Assembly: GCA_002841545.1 (NCBI GenBank)
Contig: PGZZ01000007.1
Location: 1-64,000 of the forward strand
From: Firmicutes bacterium HGW-Firmicutes-16
GTDB taxonomy: Bacteria; Bacillota; Clostridia; Oscillospirales; Oscillospiraceae
Direction: 5' to 3'
Length of the DNA: 64,000 bases
How positions within the stretch are numbered: the stretch's first letter is position 1; each line of letters opens with the position of its first letter. Shown here piece by piece: positions 47,494 to 49,642 of the stretch. The notes below the pieces were generated by a model. That model did no database searches, had not been told where the DNA came from, and saw only the letters and a list, made by a program, of their open reading frames with translations. The translations under genes and the position numbers were made by a program.

Positions 47494-47793
47494 CACGGCC
47501 CGTGACAAGACTGCACACCCACCTTTGAATAAATTGATATACCCGTTACCTGAGTAGTTAGCTCGAACCCGGCTACCTCACGGCACACAGAGCTACCCGC
47601 TTAATGCTGCTCGGTTCCCCGCCTGACATGGTTCACAGGCTTCCGTTGCGCAAGACCAGGTCTTCAACACCACTTGCCGAGGTCAGACGACACATCAATT
47701 ATCCTGGGGTGGGAATTCATCCCTGCTGTAGCGGATTGCAGGTACAGGGCACCGCTAGCTCCCCGACTAGTGCAGCCTTGTCACGGGCCGCGT
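47494..47793 (-). ncRNA. ffs: Large signal recognition particle RNA
   Basis: A 300-nt Gram-positive-type SRP RNA with Alu and S domains. The ends pair through a long stem (GGCCCGTGACAAG at the 5' side with CTTGTCACGGGCC at the 3' side). The S-domain apical hairpin (about 47628-47600) reads GTCAGG-CGG-GGAA-CCG-AGCAGC. It keeps the GGAA tetraloop and the symmetric and asymmetric loops that bind Ffh, while the closing stem is CGG/CCG instead of the usual TCC/GGA. It functions in co-translational membrane targeting. Confidence 0.93.
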
Positions 47794-47984: not shown

Positions 47985-48040
47985 ATTGATGCAAATCCAA
48001 ACACCTTCTTTGTCATGAAAAATGTCTTTGGATTTGTAAT

Positions 48041-48082
48041 AGAAATACCGAACATGGGTTAATTCCCATGTTCGGTATTTCT
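48041..48082. terminator. Perfect 18-bp hairpin terminator, repeat copy 1
   Basis: AGAAATACCGAACATGGG, loop TTAATT, then the exact reverse complement, followed by ATTATTCTTT. It probably ends the tRNA-Ala transcript. A near-identical copy lies at 49283-49324, and a related one lies at 51240. Confidence 0.82.
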
Positions 48083-48176
48083 ATTATTCTTTATAGCTCA
48101 TTATATTAAAAAATCAGAAAAGTTTTTCGGGTTTTTCGACAAGCAATCTTAACAATTTGATTTTTAGACATGCTGT

Positions 48177-48205
48177 TTGACTTTTTGGTCAAATTGTGAT
48201 ATCAT
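48177..48205 (+). promoter_or_regulatory. Promoter of the riboswitch/dapB-like transcript
   Basis: TTGACT (48177-48182), a 17-base spacer and TATCAT (48200-48205). Predicted start about 48212, giving a leader of nearly 300 bases. Confidence 0.75.
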
Positions 48206-48214
48206 TTTTTATAT

Positions 48215-48323
48215 AGAGAAATACTACGTAACGGTTGGACAGCTTTGGCTGTTTTCAAGATACGTCTTCTTGGGTGGGAAGTCCTAGTTTGGGCTGCCCA
48301 TCTTTTTATATACATACAATAAT
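48215..48323 (+). other. Unassigned structured leader segment
   Basis: Between the promoter and the c-di-AMP aptamer lies about 110 bases with several short hairpins (ACAGC-TTTG-GCTGT, AAGA-TACG-TCTT, CTT-GGGTGG-GAAG) and a GCCCATCTTTTTATAT end that could be a weak terminator. I do not recognise a known RNA family in it. Confidence 0.4.
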
Positions 48324-48441
48324 CGCTTAATCCGTAATTGGAACGGGAGAACCATTTTTGGGGGTGAATCACGCAGTGCGTGTAGGGTGAACTTTCCATC
48401 CGAATCCGTCAGCTAATCTCGTAAGCGTTGGAAGTGAGGGT
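48324..48441 (+). ncRNA. Cyclic di-AMP riboswitch (ydaO/yuaA type)
   Basis: The sequence follows the ydaO aptamer block by block: CGCTTAATCCG, AACGGGAGAACC, TTTTTGGGGGTGAATC, a variable hairpin (ACGCAGTGCGT), GTAGGGTGAAC, CCGAATCCGTCAGCTAATCTC, then GTAAGCG closing against the 5' CGCTTA, and GGAAGTGAGGG. These RNAs sense c-di-AMP and usually turn genes off. The aptamer ends 66 bases before a dapB-like start codon. No strong intrinsic terminator is visible between them, so control may be translational or use a weak AT-rich hairpin. Confidence 0.9.
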
Positions 48442-48506
48442 GATTGATTTTTTATTGCTAATCGTTTGATAATGTAATTGATTATACAAGTTTGAAAGGA
48501 GTATTA

Positions 48507-49283
48507 ATGAAGTTATCCATTGGACTATTCGGTTTTGGTAAAACAGGTTCTATTGTGGCAAATGAGATTATTAAGGAGAATGACTGCGAACTGAAATGGG
48601 TCGTTCGAAAGTCATCAGTTCATGAAGGAACATATGCCAGTCGACATCTAGGATATGATCACGATGAAGGAATAATTCATTCTATAAATAATATCGATTT
48701 TACTCAATTTTATAAGGAGAATAAAGTTGATGTTATCATTGATTTTTCCAGCTCAAGCGCCGTTGATGAATATAAGAACGCAGCACAGTATGGTACGCGG
48801 ATTGTATCGGCAATATCAAAGTATAATGGGAAGGAATTTGAACTGCTGAAAGAATTGAGCGATCATACCGCAGTTCTATACTCTCCTAACATAACATTAG
48901 GTGTTAATTTTCTGATAGAAGCTTCAAAGGTGCTTCAAAGTATAGCTCCGCACGCTGATATTGAAATCATCGAGGAGCATTTCAAGGGGAAAAAAGGTGT
49001 TTCCGGTACGGCTATAAGAATTGCTGATGATTTGGGTCTGGACAGAGAAAAAAACATTCATTCTATTCGAGTGGGAGGTACCATAGGAAGGCACGAGGTT
49101 GTTTTCGGTCTCCCGAATCAAACAATACGCATCATCCACGAATCGATTAATCGCGCTGCATTTGGACAAGGAGCAATATATGCGGCAAAATGGATTATGA
49201 CTCATGCAAAAGGAATGTACAGCATGGAGCAGGCACTTTCCTTGTCAATGGCTATACAGAGTAGGAATCCAAATATAAAATGA
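48507..49283 (+). CDS. DapB-like dihydrodipicolinate reductase paralogue
   Basis: 258 residues of the DapB family, which reduces 4-hydroxy-tetrahydrodipicolinate with NAD(P)H in lysine/diaminopimelate synthesis. The N-terminal nucleotide loop is GLFGFGKTGSIVANEI. The substrate motif, normally HHxxKxDxPSGTA, reads EEHFKGKKGVSGTA: one catalytic His and the Lys are kept, the second His is Phe, and the loop is one residue shorter. The ATG at 48507 has GAAAGGAG upstream. It is directly controlled by a c-di-AMP riboswitch, and it is not near other dap genes. It may be a true DapB or a reductase with a changed substrate. Confidence 0.85.
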   Translation: MKLSIGLFGFGKTGSIVANEIIKENDCELKWVVRKSSVHEGTYASRHLGYDHDEGIIHSINNIDFTQFYKENKVDVIIDFSSSSAVDEYKNAAQYGTRIVSAISKYNGKEFELLKELSDHTAVLYSPNITLGVNFLIEASKVLQSIAPHADIEIIEEHFKGKKGVSGTAIRIADDLGLDREKNIHSIRVGGTIGRHEVVFGLPNQTIRIIHESINRAAFGQGAIYAAKWIMTHAKGMYSMEQALSLSMAIQSRNPNIK

Positions 49284-49324
49284 GAAATGCCGAGCGTGGG
49301 TTGATTCCCATGTTCGGCATTTCT
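49283..49324. terminator. Hairpin terminator, repeat copy 2
   Basis: AGAAATGCCGAGCGTGGG, loop TTGATT, then CCCATGTTCGGCATTTCT, differing from copy 1 at five positions that mostly preserve pairing. It overlaps the last base of the dapB-like gene. Confidence 0.8.
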
Positions 49325-49642
49325 ATATCGTTTAACAACTAGTCAGAAAAGTCTATTTTTTAGCTAATCAGCTATGATTATTTATCGCTATTGGGCCGAT
49401 ATATAGAGATTGAATTTTCGGGATAACGGATTCGCCGCATAGCCCCTTCCGGTTTTTTTATAACATTTTGCAGCCACAGCATGCTTCATAGTGCATAAAA
49501 TGCGTTGCTTCGACAAATTACAAATTTTTTCTTTCTTTTTTTAAAAAAGTGTAGTATGATATAACATATTTTGGTCATAGCGCAAATATGCGTATTAATC
49601 ACTTATTTCGCAGTCCATTTTTTCATGTTTGAGGTGAACTGA
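49325..49642. other. AT-rich intergenic region
   Basis: No gene is seen. A weak promoter (TATGAT near 49556, without a clear -35 element) precedes the coiled-coil gene. A short CCGGTTTTTTT hairpin lies near 49450. Confidence 0.35.

Follow-up and report, generated by a model that had tools for sequence, protein, structure and literature searches.

Within the window, the 64,000-nt stretch of contig PGZZ01000007.1 of Firmicutes bacterium HGW-Firmicutes-16 that was analysed here, a Na+ riboswitch aptamer and a c-di-AMP riboswitch aptamer stand in tandem in the leader of a gene encoding a DapB-like reductase. By sequence comparison this gene is distinct from the housekeeping dapB (beside asd and dapA on contig C15 of the same genome) and encodes a second, divergent DapB-like enzyme. 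We favor, with some reserve, the reading that a two-input leader of a known type drives here an accessory reductase engaged in a lysine-family compatible-solute response. The "A and not B" gate formed by tandem Na+ and c-di-AMP riboswitches has been published with dapB among its reported targets (White et al. 2022, PMC9337991) and the riboswitch-dapB pairing is thus not new. What is added concerns the nature of the dapB target, namely its place in a separate clade and the link of this clade to ablA-ablB.

According to the favored reading, at low Na+ the aptamer strand GGGUGGG...GAAGUC would pair into the terminator T1 and transcription would stop, while with rising internal Na+ the folded aptamer would hold that strand and allow read-through past T1. 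High c-di-AMP, signalling no osmotic distress, would repress through the second aptamer. The accessory reductase would then be made when Na+ is high and c-di-AMP low, serving the compatible-solute response and not routine wall or lysine synthesis; the gene is probably switched on under salt stress.

A tandem leader before a one-gene unit

Features of the leader, its gene and related riboswitch loci are collected in Table 1. An earlier note, made from the letters of this DNA, had placed a ydaO/yuaA aptamer at 48324-48441, and the Rfam covariance scan recovers it as RF00379 over the full model (positions 1-134 of 134), with 101.1 bits against a gathering score of 38. It is the sole c-di-AMP riboswitch found in the genome. 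The note had overlooked the Na+ riboswitch and T1, both inside the piece it described, so that c-di-AMP holds as an input but is one of two, and the Na+ aptamer comes first. The RF03071 match is also full length (positions 1-55 of 55), with 57.6 bits against a gathering score of 40.5, and its sister copy in genome G173 (L019:1231-1281) scores 54.2 bits. Both aptamers share one leader, 30 bases apart, and the same tandem is found in L019, L122, L125 and L126.

Table 1. Coordinates of the tandem leader, its gene and related riboswitch loci (positions are those of the window unless a contig or locus is given; G000 is the window's genome)
Feature	Position	Strand	Evidence or remark
Terminator-like hairpin closing upstream tRNA unit	48039..48084	+	Near-identical to the hairpin 3′ of the DapB-like gene
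Promoter-like TTGACT-17-TATCAT, TG before -10	48177..48205	+	10/12 consensus bases; consensus match only
Na+ riboswitch aptamer RF03071 (DUF1646 motif)	48233..48283	+	Rfam 57.6 bits, E 3e-9
Terminator T1 of Na+ switch	48272..48308 (stem 48272-48303 + U-tract)	+	-18.6 kcal/mol
c-di-AMP riboswitch aptamer RF00379 (ydaO/yuaA)	48314..48443	+	Rfam 101.1 bits, E 7e-23
Linker, c-di-AMP aptamer to gene	48444..48506	+	U6 48448-48453; AAAGGAG 48495-48501
DapB-like reductase gene, 258 aa	48507..49283	+	Pfam, NCBIfam, AlphaFold2, motif alignment
Terminator-like hairpin 3′ of DapB-like gene	49283..49324	+	18 pairs, 9 G-C
Na+ riboswitch L049, before V-type ATPase operon	G000 C20:106717-106767		
Na+ riboswitch L050, before Na+/Ca2+ exchanger	G000 C12:32284-32333		35.2 bits, below Rfam threshold; 15-pair terminator hairpin
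Tandem Na+/c-di-AMP leader locus of G468, with canonical-motif DapB	L126 5485-6690		
Tandem Na+/c-di-AMP leader locus of G468, with glutamate 2,3-aminomutase-like gene	L125 2306-3990		

The 12-pair T1 stem (GGGUGGG.AGUCC/GGGCU.CCCAUCU) overlaps the 3′ shoulder of the Na+ aptamer, reusing its strand GGGUGGG plus GAAGUC, as in the layout of an ON switch. In the L019 counterpart (-20.9 kcal/mol), CCCGCC stands in for CCCAUC across from an unchanged GGUGGG, and GGACU for GGGCU, with pairing preserved, i.e. the stem covaries. From this layout and the published examples (PMC9337991) we infer the direction of control and predict an ON switch; in the Dehalobacter tandem, Na+ acted as ON and c-di-AMP as OFF signal in vitro (White et al. 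2022, PMC9337991). Two further Na+ aptamers of the same layout are present in the window's genome (L049 and L050 in Table 1), and the genes that follow them, for a V-type ATPase and a Na+/Ca2+ exchanger, would be sensible targets of such a switch.

The second half of the leader is less complete. No convincing terminator (T2) was found 3′ of the c-di-AMP aptamer in the window (48444-48506) or in L019, in agreement with the earlier note, which had seen no strong one. An AAUCAC/GUGAUU helix beside U6 was considered as T2 and put down to chance, being not conserved in L019; ribosome-site control was also discarded, since accessibility gave no signal (0.39, 0.34 and 0.34 with the aptamer free, fixed and forbidden, respectively). 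The leader appears, then, as a tandem of both aptamers in which the full published two-terminator design is seen only in part. L009, L010, L122 and L126 do carry a hairpin and U-run 3′ of their c-di-AMP aptamers. Adjacent to that hairpin lies an AACGC or ACGC with which GCGUU of P1 can base-pair, consistent with a usual OFF design, and a T2 is present in L122. Binding of c-di-AMP and repression by it are predicted for the window leader.

The ATG lies 63 bases downstream of the c-di-AMP aptamer. The own promoter proposed in the note corresponds to a consensus match and, together with the terminator-like hairpin 3′ of the gene, it makes a one-gene transcription unit comprising riboswitches and DapB-like gene probable.

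A divergent clade of DapB-like proteins

That the gene encodes a DapB-like protein, as first noted, is borne out by Pfam (DapB_N 48.6 bits, DapB_C 87.8 bits). An AlphaFold2 model (pLDDT 92.5, pTM 0.87) was obtained and every one of its top 44 PDB matches is a DapB (lowest E 1e-21), indicating a DapB fold. Under the NCBIfam model TIGR00036, however, the protein reaches 122 bits, exactly the cut-off, and its clade 105-135 bits, versus 205.5 bits for the canonical DapB copy of the same genome.

In the tree, the clade is split off by a branch supported at 100/100 and has a long stem. Its 14 members there come from Clostridia relatives, Peptoclostridium, Sporomusa, Bacteroidota and Kapabacteria, and clade members remain grouped after the addition of further DapB copies. 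The L019 sister protein is 77-78% identical to that of the window. A canonical-type DapB is also present in all clade-carrying genomes tested (14/14). Carriers are rare and patchy: three others among 199 genomes of the same family, one among 390 of the class and two among 397 of the phylum; G003, of the same genus, has canonical DapB only.

The active site reads EEHFKGKKGVSGTA where canonical DapB has ExHHxxKxDAPSGTA. In 17 out of 17 clade members (the 14 aligned plus three further ones showing the same changes), the second His of HHxxK is Phe (HH to HF), the Pro before SGTA is absent and TTG is lost, its position reading [IV][SA]x, while all three features are kept in the 24 canonical DapB sequences (24/24). 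The combination HHxxK...DAPSGTA plus TTG that marks TIGR00036-type DapB is therefore missing from the clade, where D34 is also replaced by Arg or Lys. Compared with 4-hydroxy-tetrahydrodipicolinate reductase DapB (TIGR00036; PF01113/PF05173), the window protein shares the fold, the domain plan, GxGxxG, a His and the Lys of HHxxK (H158 and K162) and SGTA (S166-G167-T168-A169), all kept in the clade, but differs in the four changes above and in being an accessory copy from a separate clade.

In PaDHDPR, the two carboxylates of the bound substrate analogue are contacted by His155 and Thr165, one each, and activity requires Lys158 (PMC5962572). Mapped onto this enzyme by sequence alignment and a reading of one homologous structure, the clade would retain the catalytic set but only one of the two carboxylate contacts, given that Phe replaces the equivalent of His155 and the Thr is retained. 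The retention of H158, K162 and SGT points to an enzyme that still reduces a cyclic imine. The change at D34, near the ribose site that governs NADH/NADPH use in DapB, could favor NADPH, a point that we regard as suggestive only.

In Sporomusa (L061 and L065) we observed a third DapB-family copy with an intermediate motif, DENHRNKKDSPSGTA, related to the L113 protein described below.

Riboswitch pairing and ablA-ablB operons

A search among relatives for the pairing that the note proposed found a c-di-AMP aptamer directly upstream of the clade gene or its operon in 9 of 12 Bacillota loci (the window, L019, L009, L010, L011, L012, L013, L122 and L123; L020 and L021 duplicate the contigs of L009 and L010 and were not counted again), against none at 46 control dapB loci (about 1.5 kb flank; a few controls repeat one locus). 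No riboswitch over threshold was found at L008, L081 and L114, nor at five clade loci of Bacteroidota and Kapabacteria. A Na+ aptamer scoring above threshold stands before the clade gene only in the window and L019, and before the operon in L122. Among cultured carriers of the clade, a Sporomusa strain has the c-di-AMP aptamer and Clostridium aminobutyricum has none. Genome G468 has tandem leaders before a DapB with full canonical motifs (L113) and before a glutamate 2,3-aminomutase-like gene (L111). Since the L113 protein belongs to a lineage other than the divergent clade, tandem leaders have come to stand before DapB genes of two lineages or more, and the link between c-di-AMP and DapB-family genes is, judging from these loci, real and recurrent. 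Of the tie between c-di-AMP and diaminopimelate or lysine that had been suggested, the DapB-family part stands; the enzyme of diaminopimelate, lysine and wall synthesis, however, is the dapB on C15.

In two distant genomes the clade gene (here dapB*) is the last gene of an ablA-ablB-dapB* operon. The G1114 order (L122) is Na+ aptamer (44.5 bits), c-di-AMP aptamer (105.8 bits), ablA, ablB and dapB*, which starts 117 bases after ablB, with AblA at 612.9 bits (cut-off 525.4) and AblB at 293 (cut-off 205.1). Similarly, G1237 (L123) presents a c-di-AMP aptamer (90.7 bits) followed by ablA, ablB and dapB* with gaps of 4 and 28 bases, AblA (624.3 bits) and AblB (280.3) both scoring over the cut-offs. 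The aptamer scores in these two loci come from models built for this analysis, not from Rfam models. Within the open-licence papers searched, we found no literature on this operon or on the divergent clade.

The N-epsilon-acetyl-beta-lysine genes ablA-ablB (TIGR03820, TIGR03827) thus have a same-clade gene 3′ in two genomes under a leader of the same type as in the window, with the difference that AblA is not found in the window's genome (no match at E 0.001; genome 96.7% complete). For that reason beta-lysine production is unlikely here, a beta-lysine role was set aside for this genome and the operon argument bears on it indirectly. Either the enzyme would be used independently of beta-lysine, as a lysine-supply isozyme or a different reductase, or the unit would be a remnant.

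Further features were observed in the same two genomes. The clade gene of the G1114 operon (L122 7340-7963) is broken by an in-frame TGA at codon 208. In G1237, weak Na+ aptamer-like matches (17 bits, E 0.02) occur at L124 9156-9210 (minus strand), just upstream of a solo clade gene, and at L123 7557-7600 (minus strand), just upstream of a membrane protein gene whose product resembles an NhaD/ArsB-type antiporter.

Possible roles of the enzyme

Two published tandems come closest to the window. The one before ablA in Dehalobacter sp. CF shares with it both aptamer classes and their order, a terminator that overlaps the 3′ shoulder of the Na+ aptamer, and an osmolyte-related target; the window differs in having the DapB-like gene alone as target and no clear second terminator. 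Acetivibrio cellulolyticus has a tandem before dapB (PMC9337991, Extended Data Fig. 6), sharing leader plan and gene name, and three Na+ switches in its genome, as in ours. In White et al., ablA and dapB appear as separate Na+ switch targets, and wall strengthening or lysine supply under salt is suggested for the Acetivibrio gene (PMC9337991), whose reaction is taken as that of an ordinary DapB. The window gene belongs to the divergent clade.

The published suggestion, transferred to the window, would make the gene a plain second DapB (HTPA reductase) that sends more flux into diaminopimelate and lysine under salt, either to strengthen the wall or to supply lysine. The DapB fold, the catalytic H158, K162 and SGTA kept in all clade members, a TIGR00036 score sitting at its cut-off and the canonical-motif DapB under a tandem leader in G468 all speak for it, and lysine supply would also account for the operons with ablA and ablB. 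We nevertheless find it somewhat unlikely, as a canonical dapB is already there beside asd and dapA, neither the invariant TTG nor the Pro before SGTA survives in the clade, and the His lost in 17/17 members is the one whose PaDHDPR equivalent touches a substrate-analogue carboxylate. That same loss, with the Thr for the other carboxylate kept, leads us to entertain tentatively an enzyme that reduces a different cyclic imine, e.g. one without the second carboxylate, making or protecting an osmolyte. The Arg/Lys at D34, which could favor NADPH, the long stem branch with its conserved new motifs and the retention of the gene next to canonical DapB are in line with it, but the residue mapping depends on an alignment and one homologous structure. 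Possible to a like degree is the wider proposition that the clade is a new osmolyte enzyme mis-annotated as DapB, which reduces a non-DHDP substrate in a lysine-family route and is regularly governed in these Bacillota by c-di-AMP riboswitches, sometimes together with Na+ ones.

A relic left by the loss of ablA and ablB from the genome, with dapB* persisting under a switch already decayed in part, would agree with the missing AblA, with the absence of T2 in the window and L019 and with a same-genus genome (G003) devoid of the gene. It is improbable considering that the ORF is intact with all clade motifs, that 77-78% identity to the sister goes along with a compensated T1 stem, and that stand-alone copies are the commonest arrangement seen. 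We give hardly any weight to direct control of a housekeeping diaminopimelate, spore or dipicolinate pathway, a reading drawn from the enzyme name: the housekeeping dapB is elsewhere and no c-di-AMP aptamer was found at it. The relevance to wall and spore once proposed gives way to osmolyte chemistry, which fits better because the clade gene is an operon partner of ablA and ablB elsewhere; nothing was found connecting the gene to sporulation or dipicolinate, the neighboring ORFs not being recognizable as such genes.

For the favored accessory reductase, these observations suggest that at least one lineage of dapB targets is a distinct enzyme tied to a lysine-derived osmolyte pathway, where the published account has an ordinary lysine or wall enzyme. 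If true, this would put right an automatic annotation in which salt response and wall synthesis are confounded, and the question of the substrate becomes testable.

The unit is bracketed exactly by two terminator-like hairpins (48039-48084 and 49283-49326), which form a 44-nt repeat, 89% identical. Recent transposition, an idea raised by these twins, was dismissed, as the repeat has just two copies genome-wide and no mobile gene was recognized adjoining the unit. Further upstream, a bacterial large SRP RNA (198 bits) lies at 47511-47775 on the minus strand, beside dnaX and ybaB, and in L009 an SRP-dnaX-ybaB block also adjoins the riboswitch-DapB-like unit, in an orientation different from that of the window.
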